A stretch of 64,000 bases of DNA from Lachnospiraceae bacterium Phil5. Lineage in GTDB: Bacteria > Bacillota > Clostridia > TANB77 > CAG-508. Below the pieces are notes generated by a model that had not been told where the DNA came from, did no database searches, and was given only the letters and a program-made list of their open reading frames with translations. The stretch lies in NCBI GenBank assembly GCA_002633185.1, contig NWBM01000002.1, forward strand, positions 626,832 to 690,831, written 5' to 3'. This document shows positions 3,237 through 47,745 of this stretch, in pieces. Position 1 is the stretch's first letter; each line of letters starts with the position of its first letter. The translations under genes were made by a program, and so were the position numbers.

Positions 3237-3278
3237 AATTTTTTTATCTCCTTTTCGTCTTGTCTGTGTCCTGTCTGT

Positions 3279-3338
3279 GGACGGGGACAAAAGTGGACAA
3301 AATGTCCGATTTTGTCCCCGTCCCCAAATAGGACATTT
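3279..3338. repeat. Family 2 GGGGACA inverted repeat
   Basis: GGACGGGGACAAAA at 3279-3292 is perfectly inverted at 3310-3323, with a GTGGACAAAATGTCC core between. It fills the gap between the alaS stop and the HIT gene and touches the alaS 3' end. Similar elements lie near 6588, 18798, 27113, 29466 and 47703. Confidence 0.85.
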
Positions 3339-3339
3339 T

Positions 3340-5109
3340 TTATTCTAGAACAGCCTTAATTCTTCTAACTCCAGCCGAACTAGCTTCTTCCTTTTTAATT
3401 TTGAAAGTTCCAAGTTCAGACGTATTAGAAACATGAGGTCCCCCGCATATTTCAAGTGATACATCACCAATTTTATAAACTGAAACTATGTCTGGGTATC
3501 TTTCTATAAATTGACATTCAGCTCCCATCTTTACTGCTTCTTCTTTTGGCATTTCTAATCTTTCAACTGGAATTGCCATTTTTATATATTCATTAACTAA
3601 GTCTTCAGCTTGTTTCTTTTGCTCATCTGTCATTTTTTCATCTTGAGTAAAGTCAAATCTCATTCTTTCTGCTGTGATGTTGCTTCCTCTTTGATGAACA
3701 TGTGCTCCTAAAACTACTTTTAATGCTGCATTTAGAAGATGTGTTGCTGTATGATATTTAGTTTCCATTTCTCCTGATGAAGCTAAACCACCTTTGAATT
3801 TTTGTTCTGAACCTGCTCTTGATTTTGCTTGATGTTCTTCAAATTTTGCTTTGAATCCAGCCATATCAACTTTTAAGCCTTGTTCTTTTGCAAGTTCTTC
3901 AGTTAATTCAATTGGAAATCCATAAGTATCATATAATCTGAATGCTGTATCTTTATCAATTTCATTATTTTGAATGTTTTTGCTTATTTTTTCAAATTCT
4001 CTTAAACCTTTTTCAAGAGTTCTGTTGAATTTTATTTTTTCATTTTTTAAAGCATCTAAAATGAAATCTTTGTTTCTGTCTAATTCTAAGTAATATTGCT
4101 TATACTCGTTTATTACAATATTTGCTAATTCTTGCTCCCAATTTGATTCAATATTTATATCGATTTGACGAGCATATCTTATCATTCTTCTAATTAATCT
4201 TCTTAATATATAACCTTGATCTTTATTAGAAGGCATTATTTTTGCGTCATCACCTAGAATCATTACGACAGCTCTAATGTGATCTGCAATAATTCTCATG
4301 AATTTTGTGTATTTTTCATCATCATATTTTTTATTTGATACTTCTTCAATTTTTGAAATTATATTTTTCCAAATTGATGATTTGTAATTATCTGTTTGTC
4401 CTTCTAGAATTGCAGTTACTCTTTCTACACCCATTCCAGTATCAACATTTTTGTTTTTTAACTGAGTAAATGTTCCATCTGGATTGTGCATATATTGCAT
4501 AAATACGTTGTTCCAAATTTCTACCCAATTGTCGTTCTCTGGATCGAATTTTTCTGGAATAGCTTCAGTGCTTCTCCAGTAGAAAATTTCTGTATCTGAA
4601 CCACATGGTCCTGTTGATTCCATGTTTGGCCACCAGTTGTCATCTTCACCTAAATATGCAATTCTTTCTTCTGGAATACCTTGTTCCATCCATATTTTTG
4701 CAGCTTCTGTATCAGCTGGAATCATATCATTTCCTTTAAACACAGTTACAGCAAGTCTTTCAACTGGAATATTTAAATGTTTTGTTAATAATTCAAAACT
4801 CCATTTTATAGATTCTTCTTTAAAATAATCTCCTAAAGACCAGTTTCCAAGCATTTCGAAAAATGTGTGGTGTGTTGTATCTCCAACCTCGTCTAAATCG
4901 TTTGTTCTAAAACATTTTTGAACATCTGTTAATCGTGTTCCTTCAGGATGTGGTTCACCTTTTAAATAAGGTACCAATGGTTGCATTCCAGCCACATTAA
5001 ATAAAACTGTTGGATCATTTTCCGGAATAATTGGCGCACTTGGAATTATTTTGTGACCTTTACTTTCAAAAAAATTTAAATATGTATCTTTTAAATTTAT
5101 AGTTTCCAT
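3340..5109 (-). CDS. alaS: Alanyl-tRNA synthetase, compact form without C-Ala domain
   Basis: Charges tRNA-Ala. The 589 residues hold the class II catalytic core (TYLNFFESKGHKIIPS at the N-terminus, then CGSDTEIF and GMGVERV) and the tRNA-recognition helices. The editing-domain zinc ligands are His453/His457 (HTATH) and Cys555/His559 (CGGPH). Usual bacterial AlaRS is about 870-880 residues. Here the protein ends right after the editing domain (SSAGVRRIKAVLE), so the C-Ala domain is absent. The beta-barrel stretch normally between the recognition helices and the editing domain is reduced to a short linker at about 430-452. The frame is open with no sign of decay. No T-box is visible in the short upstream gap. 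Confidence 0.93.
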   Translation of the reverse strand: METINLKDTYLNFFESKGHKIIPSAPIIPENDPTVLFNVAGMQPLVPYLKGEPHPEGTRLTDVQKCFRTNDLDEVGDTTHHTFFEMLGNWSLGDYFKEESIKWSFELLTKHLNIPVERLAVTVFKGNDMIPADTEAAKIWMEQGIPEERIAYLGEDDNWWPNMESTGPCGSDTEIFYWRSTEAIPEKFDPENDNWVEIWNNVFMQYMHNPDGTFTQLKNKNVDTGMGVERVTAILEGQTDNYKSSIWKNIISKIEEVSNKKYDDEKYTKFMRIIADHIRAVVMILGDDAKIMPSNKDQGYILRRLIRRMIRYARQIDINIESNWEQELANIVINEYKQYYLELDRNKDFILDALKNEKIKFNRTLEKGLREFEKISKNIQNNEIDKDTAFRLYDTYGFPIELTEELAKEQGLKVDMAGFKAKFEEHQAKSRAGSEQKFKGGLASSGEMETKYHTATHLLNAALKVVLGAHVHQRGSNITAERMRFDFTQDEKMTDEQKKQAEDLVNEYIKMAIPVERLEMPKEEAVKMGAECQFIERYPDIVSVYKIGDVSLEICGGPHVSNTSELGTFKIKKEEASSAGVRRIKAVLE

Positions 5110-6587: not shown

Positions 6588-6623
6588 TTGGGGACAGATT
6601 AGTATTACCTAACCTGTCCCCAA
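6588..6623. repeat. Family 2 GGGGACA inverted repeat
   Basis: TTGGGGACAG...CTGTCCCCAA arms surround a short GTATTACC core. The element ends 7 bases from the stop of the CapA-like gene at 6631, again at a minus-strand gene 3' end. Confidence 0.85.
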
Positions 6624-12148: not shown

Positions 12149-12160
12149 ATTTTGGAAGAG

Positions 12161-12188
12161 TTTTTTGGGGACACCTCCAAAAAACATC
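12161..12188 (-). repeat. Family 1 repeat, left copy bracketing the por terminator
   Basis: Reads TTTTTTGGGGACACCTCC and onwards, an inverted copy of the 29-bp consensus with an extra G. With the copy at 12249-12277 it forms an inverted pair around the terminator. Confidence 0.9.
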
Positions 12189-12202
12189 TAGATTAAAAAT
12201 CG

Positions 12203-12232
12203 AAAAAAGCAGGATTGTTAACCTGCTTTTTT
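12203..12232 (+). terminator. Intrinsic terminator of the por operon
   Basis: The AAAAAAGCAGG arm is inverted as CCTGCTTTTTT. It lies between two opposed family 1 repeats and probably works in both directions for convergent porB and the symporter gene. Confidence 0.88.
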
Positions 12233-12244
12233 ACTTTTTATTAT

Positions 12245-13519
12245 TTAAGATGTTTTTTGGAGGTGTCCCAAAAAATCTTTTCCATCTACCATTCTACCTA
12301 CTAGCATACTTGATGCTGTGTTTCCAGTAACATTTAACATTGTTGCTGGTGAATCTATTATTGTTGCTATTATTGTTAATATTGGAAGTGCTGCAACTGG
12401 GTAGCCTAGCATTGTTATAATCATCATTTCTGAAATTGTTCCTCCGCCTATTGGCACTGCACTTACTAATAATGTTGCAAGTAATCCTACTATTATAATC
12501 TGTGCAATTCCTGATGGGCTTGCAATATTTGTTCCGAATAAACATACTAAAAACATTATTTTAAATACTGTTCCTATTATTGAACCATCTTTATGGAAGC
12601 TTGTTCCTAGTGGGATAACTGTTTCCGCTATATCATCACTTACTCCCATTTTTCTACTTGCTTCTGTATTTCCTGGAATACATGCTGCTGATGAACATGT
12701 TGCAATTGATGTTACTGTTGGATCTATTATATTTCTCCAAAATACTTTTATACCTTTTTTTCCTCCTGCAATAAATGCATATAGTGTATATATAACTATA
12801 TAAAATGCGACTGCAACGGCTAAATAAATTACAAAAGTTTTTACATATCCTATTGCTATGCTCTCTCCAAAAGTTCCCACTAATACTGCAAAATAGCATC
12901 CAAGTCCTATTGGTGCATAATATGTTATTAATTGAAGTACTTTCATTACTACTTCATTTGCTGAAATTAACACTCTTTCAAATGGCTTAGCAGACTCCCC
13001 TGCCATACGCATTGCAATTCCAAACAGAATTGAGAAAATCATTACTGCTAATAAATTTTGTCTTGAAAATAATCCTGAAAAATCTGTAACAGTTATTGCC
13101 TCAACTGTTCTATCTAAAATAGTTTTCTCTTCTTCAGAACTTTTTTCAGATTCTTCTTCACTGCTTTCTTCAGCAAAACTAGACTTTATTGCCTCTGTAT
13201 CTTTTGGTTCAACTAATTTTATAAAATATGTACTTGCTATTCCCACTAAAACTGCAATAATTGATGTTATTATTATTACAAAAATTGTTGATCCCATAAT
13301 TTTACCTAATCTTTTAGGTGATTTCATTTTTGAAATTGATGTTGAAATTGTTAAAAATACTAGTGGTATTATAATTACAAACATTAAATTGATAAATATA
13401 TCTCCTAATGGTTTTACTACTTTTGTTTGCTCCTTATAAATTAATCCAAAAATTGCTCCTATAATTATAGATGCCAATAGTATTATAGTTTGTCTATAAT
13501 TCTTCCAAAAAATCTTCAT
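12245..13519 (-). CDS. Dicarboxylate/amino acid:cation symporter (DAACS)
   Basis: Sodium- or proton-coupled importer of the GltP/SdcS type, about 424 residues. Multiple hydrophobic segments are visible, with family motifs TCSSAACIPGN, the GTSFHKDGSIIGTVFKIMF re-entrant loop and the VPIGGGTISEMM region. An acidic Ser/Glu stretch (about 117-133) lies in a loop. The ATG at 13519 follows GGGGAG; an in-frame TTG two codons earlier is less likely. Its final ten residues are encoded by a dispersed family 1 repeat, so the original stop seems to have been replaced. Confidence 0.9.
   Translation of the reverse strand: MKIFWKNYRQTIILLASIIIGAIFGLIYKEQTKVVKPLGDIFINLMFVIIIPLVFLTISTSISKMKSPKRLGKIMGSTIFVIIITSIIAVLVGIASTYFIKLVEPKDTEAIKSSFAEESSEEESEKSSEEEKTILDRTVEAITVTDFSGLFSRQNLLAVMIFSILFGIAMRMAGESAKPFERVLISANEVVMKVLQLITYYAPIGLGCYFAVLVGTFGESIAIGYVKTFVIYLAVAVAFYIVIYTLYAFIAGGKKGIKVFWRNIIDPTVTSIATCSSAACIPGNTEASRKMGVSDDIAETVIPLGTSFHKDGSIIGTVFKIMFLVCLFGTNIASPSGIAQIIIVGLLATLLVSAVPIGGGTISEMMIITMLGYPVAALPILTIIATIIDSPATMLNVTGNTASSMLVGRMVDGKDFLGHLQKTS
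12249..12277 (+). repeat. Family 1 repeat copy forming the symporter C-terminus
   Basis: Perfect 29-bp consensus. On the minus strand it encodes the last residues of the symporter (DFLGHLQKTS), immediately before its stop. Confidence 0.92.
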
Positions 13520-18797: not shown

Positions 18798-18852
18798 TTG
18801 GGGGACTGGGTAGATTTGTGTAAAAATGAAACATTTTAACCCTGTCCCCCAA
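18798..18852. repeat. Family 2 GGGGACA-type inverted repeat
   Basis: TTGGGGGACTGGG at 18798-18810 is inverted as CCCTGTCCCCCAA at 18840-18852, with an AAAATGAAACATTTT core. It ends 10 bases from the stop of the giant gene. Confidence 0.82.
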
Positions 18853-24800: not shown

Positions 24801-27030
24801 AGCCTTCTAGCAAATCATGGCTAAGAACTGTATTTTCTGGAATTTCATTTTTTAATACTTGAGAAAAAACATTTAAATCATAAATTCCTTTCCCTGTAAA
24901 AATTCCCTCGTCAAAATTATCTTGGTAAACATCAAAAATAGCATTAACATACGAATCTGTTCCACCTAGTCCAGAATAAATTTTAGTAAATTGACTACGT
25001 CTAACTTCTAATAAACCAACACCTACTCTAGGCTGTAACAAAGCATGACCAGCCACAACAACATTTTTATTTTTATCAATTTCAGGCTTATTCAAAATAT
25101 GAGACATTGCACCAATTAGCTCTAACCCCGAATTCAAGGTTAAATCAGTGTCACTGTCTAGGGTAATTATATATTTTATTTGTAGGATGTTTTTTGGAGG
25201 TGTCCCAGAAAAAATATTTTTTGGGACACCTCCAAAAAACATCTCTTCATTTTCAAAGCTATTAAATAAAAATGGATTTTTTATATTTCCTAATAAATAT
25301 TCATTAAATTGATTTATTGCTCCCCTTTTTCTTTCCCAGCCTAAATAGCAGTTTTCTCCACTGTTCCATGTTCTTTTTCTGTATATAAAATTAAATTTAT
25401 TGTATTTTTCATCTGGATATTTTTCATTTAATTTTTTTATTTCTTCAATACCTGCTTTAATTATTTCATCATCAAAATTTTCTTTTTCATTTTTTCCGCT
25501 TGAACAATCTCCTAATAAAGTGAAATATAAATTATCACTTTTATTTGCAATATAATACACTTCTAATTTAGAAAATAATTCATGTACTTTTTCTGCATTT
25601 TTCACAATTGTTGGTATTATTACCATTGTTGCATATTCAGCTGGCACTCCATATTTAAAATCTAATTTAGGTAATATTTTAGGCTTTATTAATTTGCTTA
25701 AAAAATACTGAATTATTTGCACTATAATTGTCTGACTTGGAACTAATGTAGCAATAAAAATAATTACAGAAATTATTAAATTTTGAGACTCTCTATACAC
25801 ATATATTCCACTTAACAAGCTTGTCAAAATTGATAATACTACAATTCCTAAAATATATAATTTCATTTTTGTTTTATTTGATGAAAACTTTATTTTTTTA
25901 TTTAATAATTCTGATAATAAAATACTCTTCCCACTTGAAATTAAATAATAACCAATATGTGTTTCTTTCTCATTTTTCAAATCATTTCTTTGCGCTAATT
26001 CCAAGCATTTTTTTGCAATATACATTTCAGAAATTTTGGTTTTCTTTGCAATTTTTTCAATTTCCTGTCTATAATATGCTCTTGTTTTATAATCCATTTT
26101 GCTATAAACATCTGCAGGATCTTTTTTTAATATTTCCTCTACCCCATTTATTTGTTCAAAAATCTCTAAAAAATTCACCCTAATTATTGTATTAATACTT
26201 GTTATTGAATTTCCCATTGAAACTTTTTTTAAAGCAATATCAAAATGCTCTTTTTGAATAACCTCTGAAATTGTTAATCCCATTTTATCAACTTGCTCTT
26301 CTAAAATTTTTAAAAAAGCATATGCTTGCTTACCATACTGCTTCAGTCTGTATGACATATACTCAATAAAAGGATATTTCATTTCACCATATCCATACGT
26401 TCTATTTGATGAAATACTTTTAAATTTTAAATTATTTTTATTTTCTATTAATCTTTCAATAATATTTTCAACTTTATATTTTTGCATTTGAGATGAATAT
26501 ATTTTTTCACAAATTCCTCGAATATTTTCAATTAACGCAATTTGCAAAAAAATTCCGATATTCCAAATTTCATCCATGCTCAAGCTTTTCTTAGACTGAT
26601 ATGCTTGAAGTAAATTACTTAAATTATTTCTATCTATTACTCCATCTGTATAAGCTACAATTTCACTTGCTAAAACATAAACACGAGCAAAACCTTTATA
26701 ATTTCCATTATCTATACCAATAAAATTTTTATATTTTTTTAGTGGCATATCTTTTATAATTGTTTTAACCGTTTTTTCAATTATATAATAATTATCTAAA
26801 AGCCACTCCCCTGCTGGATGAATTGGTATTCCCAATTTTAAATGTTCTGTTAAAACATTATAAACATTTGTTATATATTCAAAATTTTCTTTTACTCTTG
26901 GTATTGGAAAAGTATTTTTTTCTGATTTATTTTTTAAAATATTATCTGATGCAAGTTTTGCTAAATAATTCTCTAATTGATTTTTATCTAATAGCACACC
27001 TTTTATATTCAAAACTCTGTAATCTTCCAA
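18862..27030 (-). CDS. Cyclic beta-1,2-glucan synthase-like protein (GT84 + GH94)
   Basis: About 2722 residues, related to NdvB/ChvB, which build and cyclise beta-1,2-glucans. A long N-terminal region is followed by membrane segments (about 390-460). The GT84-like domain carries ITLDSDTDLTLN, HDLLEGSYLRCG and RLHRWIRGDYQ, and more membrane segments follow (about 840-1010). A glycoamylase-like domain has WSGTAFEYLMP, FGIPWLGLKRGLADEMVV and MAHHQALILL. The C-terminal GH94 phosphorylase domain has GGAYGFRDQLQDSL, EGDVEHWWHEE and GSGDWNDGF. A TTG start at 27030 is preferred, behind AGAGGTG; GTG at 27039 overlaps that site. A family 1 inverted pair is inserted in frame just before the DSD motif. 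The gene is monocistronic. Confidence 0.9.
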   Translation of the reverse strand: MEDYRVLNIKGVLLDKNQLENYLAKLASDNILKNKSEKNTFPIPRVKENFEYITNVYNVLTEHLKLGIPIHPAGEWLLDNYYIIEKTVKTIIKDMPLKKYKNFIGIDNGNYKGFARVYVLASEIVAYTDGVIDRNNLSNLLQAYQSKKSLSMDEIWNIGIFLQIALIENIRGICEKIYSSQMQKYKVENIIERLIENKNNLKFKSISSNRTYGYGEMKYPFIEYMSYRLKQYGKQAYAFLKILEEQVDKMGLTISEVIQKEHFDIALKKVSMGNSITSINTIIRVNFLEIFEQINGVEEILKKDPADVYSKMDYKTRAYYRQEIEKIAKKTKISEMYIAKKCLELAQRNDLKNEKETHIGYYLISSGKSILLSELLNKKIKFSSNKTKMKLYILGIVVLSILTSLLSGIYVYRESQNLIISVIIFIATLVPSQTIIVQIIQYFLSKLIKPKILPKLDFKYGVPAEYATMVIIPTIVKNAEKVHELFSKLEVYYIANKSDNLYFTLLGDCSSGKNEKENFDDEIIKAGIEEIKKLNEKYPDEKYNKFNFIYRKRTWNSGENCYLGWERKRGAINQFNEYLLGNIKNPFLFNSFENEEMFFGGVPKNIFSGTPPKNILQIKYIITLDSDTDLTLNSGLELIGAMSHILNKPEIDKNKNVVVAGHALLQPRVGVGLLEVRRSQFTKIYSGLGGTDSYVNAIFDVYQDNFDEGIFTGKGIYDLNVFSQVLKNEIPENTVLSHDLLEGSYLRCGMVSDVMLMDGFPTNYLAFKKRLHRWIRGDYQILKWIKNKKINILSKYKIIDNILRSKLETSILVSILILLFEKYVDGITIFPIILFLIFSLIIPYILEILNKIIFKKDGETLQKTFEKKQTTIINSFIKIGLAIATLPDKAYMTLNAECKSLYRMIYSKKHLLEWVTAEEAEKNSKNNLQNYYINMMPNLIFGILGIILFIFGDLELIEGIFVATISVIWLISPAIIYLIGKPIKEINKIELLNKNEKEYVKNIAEKTWQYFKNYINENTNYLPPDNYQEDRKPKVMLRTSSTNIGLAMLSVIASYDLKFENLEDTINLLEKMINTVASLQKWNGHLYNWYNLENLEPLTPRFISSVDSGNLVGYFYVVLQFLNEVENSEKIAEEEKSFFIEKIKLMKIQISDLIKNTDFSKLFDYKNNLFSIGFDVEANKLVDSYYDLLASEARQASLIAIAKKDIDVKNWYNLSRTLTVLNKYKGLISWSGTAFEYLMPNINIPKYPGSLLDESCKFMIMSQKEYAKKLGIPWGISESAFNLKDLNNNYQYKAFGIPWLGLKRGLADEMVVSSYGSILAITEDPKGVIQNLKILENQGMLNKYGFYESIDFTPSRLNKNKKYENVKTYMAHHQALILLSINNLFNNNIFQKRFMKNPEMQAINILLEERMPENVIIAKEKKEKVEKIKYSNYDFYSEKTLNKISENLEKYNLISNKNYSIITDEKGNGYSKYKNILINRYKQTSDVNEGIYFYIKNIKNKKIWTNGYNQVADKPDKYTVTFAPDKTKIDRIDGNIETKTKITVSPNDSVEIRRLEIENLGNTDETLEISSYLEPVLSTKEQDYAHTAFNNLFLNYEFIPETNTILVKRKNRSNSKQAIYMAVNFYSEDKGLGEIEYEINKEKFIGRNNFGIPKLIENSKPFSKKIELTTDPIIAMKKTINIKAKENINLDLIICVSENRKEVLENIKKYLNSESNKRIFELSKARIEAENRYLGLSGKDIDNYQKILTYIIGNNSNISNISAEKNNSENSELYPITELWKFGISGDVPIIFIKIKNINDIDVIEELVKAFEYFKTKNLEIDLVILNEEKENYDSYVKEAIHNVILNRNISYMLNIKGGIFILNNIKKQDKNLIEKYSKLILDAQNGNLNMQLKEIEEETPQINKNDINETIELFQDEQDNNISFDNFKYFNGYGGFSEDGKEYFIKLNKHENVPMPWSHILANKNFGTLITDSMGGYSWSKNSRLNRITAWSNNPILDIPSEVIYIKDDDTKKAWSLGLNPMPDDNEYYAIYGFGYAKYIHTSCGIKQELEIFVPQEDSAKIQIIKLKNETPRKRKIKLIYYIKPVIGEDETQTSQFFNIKFDKNSNTIIAKNLKNTDYKNNIFISSSEKIKSYTGLKKEFLGNGGMSNPDGLKLYNFSNKLNDKISEIIAVELEIELESLENKELSIVLGASDSVIECQDLAYKYSNLNNCNQENELVKKYWNNLLNKIQVNTPMESMNILLNGWLMYQTIVSRLIGRTGFYQSGGAYGFRDQLQDSLSAKYLNPEITKDQIIKHSEHQFIEGDVEHWWHEETKRGIRTKFSDDLLWLPYTVADYIEFTGDYSILNIETNYLDGNVLEDGIDEKYDLYIQSDKKGTIYEHCIKAIEKSINIGEHGLPKIGSGDWNDGFSTVGNKGKGESVWLAFFLCAVLNKFIQICEYVGDSKSEKYKQIVEQIKKSINQNAWDGRWFKRAFMDNGDELGSLQNDECKIDSIAQSWSVISNMGDNDKKYISMESLENHLVDSENGIIKLLDPPFENGTLEPGYIKAYLPGTRENGGQYTHAAVWVIIAEAILGFGNKAVEYFRMINPIEHTRTKEEVMKYKVEPYVIPADVYGKDNLSGRGGWTWYTGSSSWMYIAGIKYILGINIENGYMTFNPAIASNWKEYSIKYKIGESIYNIKVYNLYGKNNGVQKVVINGSVIEACKIKLIDDGNVNEVEVFL
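25186..25243. repeat. Family 1 inverted pair inside the glucan synthase gene
   Basis: 58 bp with perfect 22-bp arms (GATGTTTTTTGGAGGTGTCC and two further bases) around an A/T-rich core. The coding frame stays open through it and reads MFFGGVPKNIFSGTPPKNIL on the minus strand, about residues 595-615, directly before the ITLDSDTD glycosyltransferase motif. Confidence 0.95.
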
Positions 27031-27112
27031 ATTTGACACCTCTTATATTTTTTTATTTTTAGATGTATTTTCTCCAAATTTGGAATTATTTATGCAAAAA
27101 AAGATACAAATG

Positions 27113-27165
27113 GAGACGGGATAAAAATGTGTCAAAATAAAACATTTTTCCCCACCCCCATTACG
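27113..27165. repeat. Degenerate family 2 repeat
   Basis: GGAGACGGGATAAAAATG...CATTTTTCCCCACCCCC is a weaker relative of the element at 29466. It lies between the giant gene's start and the pyrB stop, about 17 bases from the latter. Confidence 0.55.
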
Positions 27166-29377: not shown

Positions 29378-29465
29378 AAAATCACCTCTTTTTAAATTAT
29401 AAATACCTATAAATATTATACCACATTTTTCCATAAATTCAAACTAAACAATTGAAACACTTAAT

Positions 29466-29530
29466 GACGGGGATAAAATGTTTCATTTTGTAACATTTTA
29501 TCCCCGTCCCCAAGCATGTTAAAATGACAC
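29466..29530. repeat. Family 2 repeat with long perfect arms
   Basis: GACGGGGATAAAATGTT at 29466-29482 is inverted at 29492-29508, followed by a second partial unit (ATGACACTTTTTTACCCCGTCC). It ends at the 3' end of the P-type ATPase gene. Confidence 0.85.
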
Positions 29531-29534
29531 TTTT

Positions 29535-32247
29535 TTACCCCGTCCTCAATTGAGACATTTTTGTTTCTTTATGAATTCTCTTTCCAAACTTCAATTCATC
29601 ACTTAATTTCTGCAATTCCATAATAGCAATAGGCATTAATGAAATTCCAATTGTATACATCCATTGTCTTAAAGTTAATGCTGTTAGCTTAAATATACTT
29701 GCAAATTGTGGAACAACTACAACTACTACCTGTAAAATTGTACCTCCAATAAAAGCTAAACATAAATATTTATTTTGAAGTAGTCCAAATTTGAAAATTG
29801 ATTCATCAGTTCGAATGTTAAAACAATGAACTAATTCTAGTAAGCCTAAAGACACAAATGCCATTGTTCTTCCTACTTCTAGACTGTATAAATTTTTGCC
29901 TACAGTAAATGCAAATAAATTTAATATTCCAATCATACCTCCTTCTAATAAAATTCGTGCCCATAGGCCATCTGCAAACAAGCTCTTATTTGGGCTTCTC
30001 GGTTTTTCATTCATAATATTTTTATCAGATTTTTCTAAGCCTAACGCAATTGCTGGTAATGAATCTGTTATTAAATTAATCCATAATAATTGAATTGCTA
30101 TTAATGGAGATTTCATGCCAATTACAAGTCCTAAAAATATTGTTACTATCTCCCCCACATTTGTTGAAATTAAAAAATGGATTGCTTTTTTTATGTTATT
30201 GAAAATTGTTCTTCCATATTTTACAGCTTCAACAATAGTTACAAAATTATCATCTGTAAGAACCATATCTGCTGCACTTTTGGCAACATCTGTTCCATTA
30301 AGCCCCATTGCAATACCTATATCTGCCTTTTTTAGAGCCGGTGCATCATTCACCCCATCTCCAGTCATTGCAACAACTTCGCCTGCTTTTTGAAATGCAT
30401 TTACAATTCTAACTTTATGCTCAGGAGTCACTCGTGCAAAAACTGAATAATTCTTTATATTTTTTTGAAATAAATCGTCTGGAATTTTGTCTAAATCACT
30501 TCCTGTAATTGATAAATCTCCATTTTCTAAAATTCCAAGTTCATTTGCAATAGCATTTGCGGTTGTAATGTGGTCGCCTGTAATCATTACGGTTTTGATT
30601 CCTGCTTTTTTACAGGTAGCTATTGCCTCTTTTACGCCCTCTCTTGGCGGATCTATCATTCCAATTAATCCCACAAAAATTAAATCTTTTTCTATGTAAT
30701 TACTTTCAATCTTCATTGGCAATGTGTCTACATCTTTATACGCTACAGCAATTACTCTTAGTGCTTTTTCAGCCATTTTATTATTCTGATTTTCTATTGA
30801 TTTCATATTTGAAATATTCATGCTGAGAATTTTATTTTTTTCAAAATATTTACTACATCTTTTTAAAAGCACATCTGGCGCACCTTTTGTAATAATTCTA
30901 TAACCGTATGGCGTTCTGTGAATTGTGGTCATCATTTTTCTTGTTGAATCAAATGGAATGTCGTTTATTCTTTCAAATTCAGAATTTAATATTTTTTTGT
31001 TTTTGCCAATTTGTTGTACTGCATTTAAAATTGCAATTTCTGTTGGATCACCTCTTGCAGTTGCATTTCCATTTTCATATGTTATTTCCGCATCTGTACA
31101 TAATGTTGCAAGCTCTATTGCTAATCTTTGATTTGCATTATCCACAATTAATTCACTATTTAAATTAATTTTTAAATTATTTAATATGTATGTATCTATT
31201 GGTGTAACGATATTTGTAACTTTCATTTTATTTTGTGTTAAAGTTCCTGTTTTATCAGAACATATAACTGTGCTACTTCCTAGGGTTTCAACAGCTGGAA
31301 GCTTTCGAATTATACTGTTTTTCTTAGCCATTTTTGTAACTCCAATTGAAAGCACTATTGTAACAATTGCTGGCAAACCTTCTGGAATTGCTGCAACTGC
31401 CAGTCCTACAGATGTCATAAACATTTCTATTGGCGAAATGTGTTTTAATAATCCTATGCAGAAAATAAATAAGCAAATCCCTAGACATGCTAACCCTAGT
31501 GTTTTTCCAACCTCTGCTAATTTCTTTTGAATTGGAGTTTCTGGAGTTTCATTATTGATAATCATTTTTGCAATTTTTCCAACTTTTGTATTCATTCCAG
31601 TTTCAGTAACAACTGCTTCAGCATGTCCATTTACAATAACTGTTGTTGCAAAAACCATATTGCTTATATCTCCTAGCGAAGTTTTTTCTGCAAAAATTTT
31701 ATTTTCATCTTTATCAACAGGAACAGTTTCACCTGTTAAACTTGACTCTTCAGCCTTCAAATTATTAGATTTAATTATTCTACAATCAGCTGGAACAAAA
31801 TTTCCAGCCTCTAATAAAACAACATCTCCGAGGCACAAGCTCTGTGCTATTAATTGACCTAACCCTGCCTTCTCTTCTAACATTAACTTTAGGTGTTGTC
31901 ATGCTTTTCAGCGCCTCTAAAGATTTTTCAGCTTTGTATTCTTGAATTACTCCCATCATTGCATTTAAAACAACAATTGCAATAATTATAATTGAATCTA
32001 TGTAATCATTCTCACCCTGCATTTTTGTTATAACCGCAGAAATAATGGAGGCGATAATTAAAATAATAATCATAAAATCATTAAACTGCTTTATAAATTT
32101 AATTGCAATACTCTCTTTTGGCTTGTCCTCCAGCTTATTTGGTCCATACCTCGAATAACGTTTTTCAGCCTCATCATTGGTTAATCCATATTGATAATTT
32201 GTCCTTAATTTTTGCTTAACTTCACTTAAATTTAAAGAATGCCACAT
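29535..32247 (-). pseudogene. P-type Ca2+-ATPase (P2A-like), single frameshift
   Basis: Calcium- or cation-pumping ATPase of about 904 codons, interrupted by one shift. The first part (32247 to about 31832) holds the cation-ATPase N-terminal domain and transmembrane helices 1-2, ending STELVP. The rest, in the next frame, resumes GDVVLLEAGNFVPADCRI. It holds the actuator (SSLTGETVPVD), the phosphorylation site (SDKTGTLTQNKM), KGAPDVLLKRC, MTGDGVNDAPALKKADIGIAMG and the C-terminal membrane helices. At 31828-31832 the coding strand reads CCTCGGAGAT where CCTGGAGAT would restore the frame, so one extra C is enough to explain it. Everything else looks intact, so a recent mutation or a sequencing error is equally possible. 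Confidence 0.88.
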
Positions 32248-43327: not shown

Positions 43328-44401
43328 ATGAAAAAAATATTTTTAATGGCATATGTACGAAAAAATTTAGGAGACGATTTATTCATAAAAATGCTAACTC
43401 ATAAATATCCAGACTGCACATTTTTTATGAATGTCGACACCGACACATATATTGATTATTTGCAAGCAATTCCAAATTTAAAAATTTCTGTAGTAAATAA
43501 TCTTAAAGAAGAACTCTATAACTCAGATGTATCAGCCTATGACGCTTATATTTATATTGGTGGTTCAATTTTTATAGAGCCTAAAAATAAAACTTTATAT
43601 TATAATAATTTCAATGATTTTATAGATAAATGCAAAGCACATGGCAAGCCTTTTTACTATATAAGCTGCAACTTTGGGCCATATAGCACTCAAAACTATT
43701 TTGATTATTCAAGAAAAATATTCGAAAGTTGCACAGATATTTGTTTTAGAGATAAATATTCATATAATCTTTTCAAAAGTATTAGCACAGTGCGCTATGC
43801 ACCTGATTTTATATTTAACTATAAAAAGCCACATGACAAAATTATTAGCAATAGCGTTGGAATTTCTGTAATAGATTTATCAATTAGACAAAATTTAAAT
43901 ATTTCAACTGAAGATTATTTAGATTTTTTAACTACTAATATATCAAATTATTTAAAAGAAAATAAGCAAGTTTATTTATTTTCATTTTGCAAATATGAAG
44001 GTGATGAAACCACAATTAATTCACTTATTGAGAGATTCCCAAATGAAAAAAATATTCACGCTATAAAATATAATGGAAATTTAGATTCATTTTTAGATTT
44101 ATACAGTCAAATGGAATATGCAATTTGCACTAGATTTCATTCATTTGTATTGTCTAGCTTATTTAGAAATAAGGTTTATGTGTTATCATATAGTTCTAAA
44201 ATTGATAACGTGCTTGATGATTTAAATTTAGATTTGCCTTCTGTTCATTTAAGTAGTATTAATAAAAATTTGGAGTTGAATCTTGATAATTTTAAGGCAG
44301 CTAATAGTGAAAATCTTAATAATGCAATAGAATTAGCACAGGAACAATTGGATGGGGTTAATAGATTTTTTGGGACACCTCCAAAAAACATCTTGGATTG
44401 A
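43328..44401 (+). CDS. Polysaccharide pyruvyl transferase family protein
   Basis: 357 residues. MKKIFLMAYVRKNLGDDLFIKMLTHKYP, DAYIYIGGSIFIEP, FYYISCNFGPY and YAICTRFHSFVLSSL match the CsaB/WcaK family, which adds pyruvyl ketals to cell-envelope sugars. Family 1 repeat sequence encodes its last residues (FFGTPPKNIL), after which one Asp precedes the stop. It faces two glycosyltransferase genes across a repeat-flanked terminator. Confidence 0.88.
   Translation: MKKIFLMAYVRKNLGDDLFIKMLTHKYPDCTFFMNVDTDTYIDYLQAIPNLKISVVNNLKEELYNSDVSAYDAYIYIGGSIFIEPKNKTLYYNNFNDFIDKCKAHGKPFYYISCNFGPYSTQNYFDYSRKIFESCTDICFRDKYSYNLFKSISTVRYAPDFIFNYKKPHDKIISNSVGISVIDLSIRQNLNISTEDYLDFLTTNISNYLKENKQVYLFSFCKYEGDETTINSLIERFPNEKNIHAIKYNGNLDSFLDLYSQMEYAICTRFHSFVLSSLFRNKVYVLSYSSKIDNVLDDLNLDLPSVHLSSINKNLELNLDNFKAANSENLNNAIELAQEQLDGVNRFFGTPPKNILD
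44364..44392 (-). repeat. Family 1 repeat, coding for the pyruvyl transferase C-terminus
   Basis: Perfect inverted copy of the 29-bp consensus, inside the last codons of the pyruvyl transferase gene. Confidence 0.93.
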
Positions 44402-44443
44402 AAAAAGTCGGAAAAAGAAATTAATTTCTTTTCCGACTTTTTT
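44401..44443. terminator. Terminator bracketed by family 1 repeats
   Basis: AAAAAAGTCGGAAAAGAAA-type arm is inverted as TTTCTTTTCCGACTTTTTT. It serves the convergent pyruvyl transferase and GT2 genes. Confidence 0.88.
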
Positions 44444-44461
44444 CGATTTTTTTCGCTTGAA

Positions 44462-44490
44462 GATGTTTTTTGGAGGTGTCCCAAAAAATC
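44462..44490 (+). repeat. Family 1 repeat, right copy of the pair
   Basis: Perfect 29-bp consensus, 13 bases downstream of the GT2 gene's stop. It forms an inverted pair with 44364-44392. Confidence 0.93.
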
Positions 44491-44503
44491 TCCCAAACCT
44501 CTA

Positions 44504-47681: not shown

Positions 47682-47702
47682 GTTGTTTTATATTTAGAGT
47701 AA

Positions 47703-47745
47703 AATGTCCCACTTTTTGCCACGTCCCCAAAATGGGGCATTTTTT
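47703..47745. repeat. Family 2 repeat, imperfect
   Basis: AAATGTCCCACTTTTTGCC, then ACGTCCCCAAAATGGGGCATTTTT. It ends 4 bases from the stop of the HD-domain gene. Confidence 0.7.

Follow-up and report, generated by a model that had tools for sequence, protein, structure and literature searches.

Inverted repeats behind genes of Lachnospiraceae bacterium Phil5 as probable non-autonomous elements of the Y1 tyrosine transposase class with predicted hairpin ends

Introduction

Why do inverted repeats with a GGGGAC-type motif recur directly behind the genes of a Lachnospiraceae genome, as they do at the 3' end of a P-type cation ATPase gene around position 29,466 of the stretch of 64,000 nucleotides analysed here (the window)? 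The initial annotation had grouped six such elements by a common GGGGACA arm and suggested testing them for a role as terminators or in protection from decay; a mobile-element origin was absent from its reading. To answer the question we followed the repeats from the window into the whole assembly (1.04 Mb, 4 contigs, 28.9% GC, 77% complete) and into related genomes, all genome-wide counts being made on all four contigs after rejoining them from fetched stretches.

Results

GGGGACA is present nine times in the window against 1.7 expected copies, a count that none of 100 shuffles reached. Strong inverted repeats were found at 3267-3335, 6588-6621, 18798-18852, 27109-27162 and 29466-29508, and the 3' end of a minus-strand gene lies at most about 20 nt past each of these five, in agreement with the positions given in the initial annotation. 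Its names for the neighbouring genes were also borne out by Pfam, which identified AlaS, a CapA-like PGA_cap protein, a GH94 glucan synthase-like protein, an Asp/Orn carbamoyltransferase, a P-type cation ATPase and an HD protein. The inverted repeats are real, but the six elements are not one uniform family. Exact GGGGACA is limited to 3283/3313, 6590/6615 and 18843, and the three elements at 27113, 29466 and 47703 have GGGGATA, GGGGTGGGG or GGGGACG instead. The six elements form three groups: four doublets that we call family 2, a palindrome sharing the motif only (6588) and a single hairpin (47703). A profile HMM of family 2, whose sequence follows the design TGACACA-cTTGGGGACGGGGACAAAA-TGTGTCA in doubled form, matched 3274-3328, 18798-18852, 27109-27162 and 29460-29514 as well as a partial copy at 29516-29550; element 6588 was not matched by this profile and element 47703 only marginally (E = 1.5). 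The features are as follows, unstranded unless a strand is given.

29460..29514, the reported element, a family-2 doublet of two inverted back-to-back GGGGAC-type hairpins (inverted repeat; profile 53 bits; fold z -5.5), left stem GAAACA 29454-29459 / TGTTTC 29479-29484, right stem TAACA 29491-29495 / TGTTA 29517-29521
29516..29550, partial second family-2 copy covering the ATPase stop codon (profile E 0.0017)
3267..3335, family-2 doublet 3' of alaS, core 3274-3328 with the core variant CGGACATTTTGTCC (inverted repeat and profile; fold z -8.7)
18798..18852, family-2 doublet 3' of the GH94 glucan synthase-like gene (inverted repeat and profile; fold z -6.0)
27109..27162, degenerate family-2 doublet 3' of pyrB (profile E ~1e-5; fold z -2.8)
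6588..6621, GGGGACAG palindrome of another type with the motif alone in common, 3' of the CapA-like gene (fold z -5.9)
47701..47744, minus strand, single GGGGAC hairpin (solo end) with its stem around the loop GGGGACGUGGC, between convergent genes (marginal profile match; fold z -2.1)
12153..12284, family-1 element whose GGGGACACCTCCAAAAAACATC ends also flank the RAYT gene of this genome (inverted repeat)
25186..25243, two family-1 arms, reversed (tail-out), within the GH94 reading frame (inverted repeat)
44363..44491, family-1 element with 55-nt arms (inverted repeat)

As RNA the GGGGAC elements fold with energies of -23 to -45 kcal/mol and z-scores of -8.7 to -2.1, and an Rfam search over the window returned two tRNAs only and no structured-RNA family for the repeats. 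By its sequence contexts the palindrome 6588..6621 is related to GGGACAATTGGGGAC repeats of the same genome. That the two families of the window share the GGGGACA core had been recognised correctly, and both carry the end motif of Y1 transposase elements. Two further observations concern the neighbouring genes. The tail-out family-1 arms at 25186-25243 lie in frame within a GH94 ORF of 2725 aa, an arrangement shared by only 2 of the 27 opposed pairs of neighbouring family-1 arms in the genome. AlaS (3340-5109, minus strand), the 3' end of which is a few nt away from a family-2 element, has 589 aa and stops right after its SAD domain, with no further Pfam domain found.

The genome encodes one Y1_Tnp gene, and the flanks of this RAYT gene are the GGGGACACCTCCAAAAAACATC ends of family 1, of which 122 arms exist genome-wide; their alignments show a T-rich flank ahead of the arms, which may hint at the boundaries of the elements and their target site. 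Family 2 comprises about 15 dispersed copies according to the profile HMM. We also considered family 2 as a product of this sole RAYT, which is unsupported as the RAYT ends are those of family 1, although composites do exist: three family-2 doublets lie within family-1 elements (G000, C1:48652, C1:73092 and C3:169276; loci L016, L017 and L026). All three composites have a similar spacer sequence, suggesting that the composite itself may have been amplified. A separate inverted repeat, AAATAGGGGCAAGTTATAA.../TTATAACTTACCCCTATTT, is found upstream of the RAYT gene in the transposase-gene leader (L009, 1890-1960). G-rich or palindromic leaders, possibly regulatory hairpins, are also present at the transposase gene in many relatives.

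Y1_Tnp genes are present in 10 of the 16 genomes of the genus, and nearly all of them sit between inverted ends starting with GGG(G)AC. The encoded proteins have the HUH motif and the catalytic tyrosine region with invariant H60/H62 and Y120, and they match the NCBIfam model for REP-associated tyrosine transposases, the copy of this genome staying below the cut-off. In the PDB the transposase profile matched 4ER8 (TnpA-REP) only. Five of the 11 transposases aligned showed a C-terminal HTH_23 domain (best E 6e-6), which was not detected in the copy of this genome, and the closest named relatives are from gut and rumen Clostridia MAGs.

In several relatives (G005, G009/G011 and G137) transposase ends recur as doublets with the architecture of family 2. 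The transposase ends of G005 match mini-elements with TGACACATTTGGGGACGGACTC (L071 with L295), a sequence found at 9 sites in G005, at one in G009 and at none in the other 14 genomes. Those of the G009 transposase L074 match mini-elements with TGAAACATTTGGGGACGGTCTTG (ends of the TGAAACATTTGGGGACGGTCTTGATTTGTTTC type), for which 44 sites were counted in G009, 88 in G011 and 7 in G005, with none in the 13 other species and none in the control. The closest analogue of family 2 is found in G137, where the ends of the transposase L184 match mini-elements with GGGGACGGGGACAGTCTT. The 88 copies in the genome of G011 (1.6 Mb, 76% complete) are near-identical GGGGACGGTCTTG ends (e.g. L303-L315), many of them perfect doublets 36 nt apart, which is a recent expansion; no transposase was found in its 76% complete assembly. 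Among the 145 genomes of the family the exact family-2 core is confined to the genome studied here, with analogues in six other genomes under a looser doublet pattern, and its 77% complete assembly yielded no transposase with family-2 ends.

The ends were located for each transposase locus by the similarity between upstream and downstream sequence alone and then anchored on GGG+AC. The 12 nt preceding GGG+AC pair with the sequence behind the motif: in 60 distinct ends the longest perfect stem had a mean length of 6.5 bp compared to 3.5 bp when the left flanks were swapped among the ends (maximum 4.15 in 1000 permutations), and stems of at least 5 bp were present in 49 of the 60 ends (12.7 expected). 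A second, independent sample of 33 other ends, most of them clostridial plus single ones from Endomicrobia and Bacteroidales, gave a mean stem of 5.7 bp against 3.5 bp permuted. The loops mostly have 13 or 15 nt with GGGGAC on their 5' side, and the base following GGGGAC in the relatives was G in 40 of 55 ends and A in the other 15. Family 2 corresponds to two such end-hairpins in inverted orientation with a longer loop of about 20 nt. What is kept in the ends is their predicted structure and not their sequence, because the stems differ between elements yet stay paired. Each terminal inverted repeat of this class is itself a predicted hairpin, a result that appears to be new.

Turning to the position of the repeats, the clustering at gene 3' ends seen by the initial annotation extends to the whole genome, as 9 of 15 family-2 copies lie 20 nt or less from a stop codon (10.8% expected, P = 5e-6) and the nearer gene end is a 3' end for 13 of 15 (P = 0.001). 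The proposed link to the minus strand did not persist: the copies follow genes of both strands alike, and the pattern in the window mirrors the orientation of its genes, with no bias beyond the overall share of minus-strand genes (65%). The young doublets of this kind found in G009 and G011 are intergenic and about equally distributed between 3' and 5' ends (9 of 20 closer to the 3' end), which differs from family 2 (Fisher P = 0.016). These doublets do not support a universal targeting of 3' ends.

At the ATPase gene, the GGGGTAA of the partial copy at 29516-29550 supplies the TAA stop codon (29535-29537), and the C-terminus of the ATPase departs from its orthologues exactly at this copy. The orthologues within the genus have different ends, with strong divergence of the 3' ends among relatives, and in 3 of the 12 best orthologues (own genome, G009 and G011) the 3' end carries a GGGGAC element, each different from the others. 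The ATPase gene is also frameshifted: ORF 31786-32247 overlaps ORF 29535-31883 (minus strand) and encodes the N-terminal 139 residues with 77% identity to an orthologue, the remainder being encoded by 29535-31883, so that the split gene is either a pseudogene or an assembly error.

Several rival readings bear on this placement. Mobile-element repeats may have been co-opted as stabilisers of mRNA 3' ends by blocking exonucleases and may hence have been retained behind stop codons, as would fit the clustering near stop codons, the stable folds and the ability of REP elements to raise mRNA stability that is reported in Quentin et al. 2018 (PMC6006769). Young copies elsewhere show no 3' bias and selection against other positions fits equally well, so that we regard such a stabilising effect of family 2 as possible but not probable. 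A preference of the elements to insert at gene 3' ends, for which the different GGGGAC elements behind the three ATPase orthologues would speak, appears unlikely in view of the even distribution of the G009/G011 doublets. Finally, intrinsic termination of the preceding genes, the role considered in the initial annotation, would agree with the 3' location and the strong hairpins but is highly improbable, since none of the four family-2 copies in the window has a hairpin with a U-run behind it when read in the sense of its gene (found for 52 of 200 random genes, 26%), repeats of this class are also found in divergent gaps in relatives, and the sequence identity to transposase ends would be left unexplained.

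Discussion

We conclude that family 2 represents short mobile elements of the non-autonomous kind, doublets that resemble REPINs or MITEs and belong to the RAYT/TIRYT class of Y1 tyrosine transposases, and assign this reading a probability of roughly 90%. What we observed directly is that transposase genes have ends in common with the repeats, that transposases and mini-elements occur together in relatives, that the ends obey the hairpin rule and that the copies of this genome cluster at gene 3' ends. We infer the mobility of family 2 from its copy number and near-identity, and a transposase of its own as well as any effect on RNA are put forward in the same conditional sense. A family-2 element would consist of two transposase end-hairpins back to back with almost nothing in between, each made of a stem of 5–10 bp, specific in sequence to the element, and a loop that carries GGGGAC[GA] on the 5' side. 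In analogy to TnpA-REP and the IS200/IS605 enzymes the transposase probably recognises the folded single strand and might then copy or move the hairpin pair into intergenic DNA. For family 2 this could have happened in trans or by a transposase that is lost or unassembled, and if the family is mobile the expected enzyme would be one carrying GGGGACGGGGACAAAAT ends. Copies beside stop codons would be those best tolerated and retained, and at least one copy has turned into the 3' end of a reading frame. Because the young G009/G011 doublets are not 3'-biased, tolerance or retention is a more likely cause of the 3' position than a built-in function, and differential retention after intergenic insertion is the simpler reading of the clustering in this genome.

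Going beyond the present genomes, we find it reasonably likely that all GGGG[AT][CG] ends (TIRYT, subclass 2.1) are single-strand hairpins and that a GGGGAC box on the 5' side of their 13- or 15-nt loop is what the transposase reads. If this is true, the stem sequence sets the identity of an element, and transposases and their mini-elements diverge by paired changes in the stems. It would also mean a second recognition geometry for domesticated Y1 transposases, ranging from Clostridia to single examples in other phyla, in which the GGGGAC box in the loop replaces the tetranucleotide at the hairpin foot of GTAG REPs as the recognised site. TIRYT ends have so far been presented as ordinary terminal inverted repeats, and the loop-borne box offers a concrete hypothesis, testable with oligonucleotides, on how TIRYT enzymes find their ends. 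The covarying hairpin would unite TIRYTs and REP transposases in one scheme and account for a large class of palindromes with GGGGAC in anaerobic Firmicutes, which an annotator might otherwise take for terminators or regulatory RNA.

Among the known systems, the repeats belong with the TIRYT/TIRtron kind (subclass 2.1). According to Di Nocera et al. 2013 (PMC3733652), TIRYT genes have TIRs with a common GGGGWSAS, which are sometimes repeated and dimeric; some of these TIRs contain self-complementary tracts and most are called unrelated to REPs. Quentin et al. (PMC6006769) assign most TIRYT genes to TnpA-Y1 subclass 2.1 and state that REP-like sequences were not found beside genes of this subclass; TIRYT work beyond these two papers was not found in the literature searched. 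As in the TIRYTs described there, the transposase is a Y1 tyrosine enzyme of about 250 aa, the inverted ends carry a motif of the GGGG[AT][CG] type, the end families are moderately repeated and occur as dimers, and a C-terminal HTH is detected in part of the proteins. The typical flanking of a Y1 gene by the same inverted repeats is present in the relatives and for family 1 here, whereas for family 2 such a gene was not found in this 77% complete assembly. Family 1 with GGGGACAC fits the GGGGWSAS motif given there, and family 2 reads GGGGACGG, which differs from strict GGGGWSAS at position 7. The hairpin ends with the motif in the loop contradict the published absence of REP-like sequences, which does not exclude membership.

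With the REP/REPIN sequences of GTAG-dependent RAYTs (TnpA-REP, E. coli) our repeats share the short intergenic hairpins, the inverted pairs and the link to a Y1 transposase, but family 2 has no GT[AG]G 5' of the hairpin foot and a conserved GGGGAC within the loop. The CGTC-tagged REPs described in PMC3733652 are similarly short CGTC-containing palindromes forming HH dimers; they come without transposase genes, whereas the ends studied here are linked to such genes and their CGTC is the complement of GGGGACG at both ends. Generic MITEs also have terminal inverted repeats and no coding capacity, which family 1 fits best, but family 2 is essentially without an interior and its expected relative is a single-strand Y1 enzyme and not a DDE transposase. 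Hairpin ends may have been noticed in single cases by the authors of the two TIRYT studies. What we add to the known picture, from sequence comparison in two independent samples, is that the ends are predicted hairpins whose stems covary and whose loop holds the motif.
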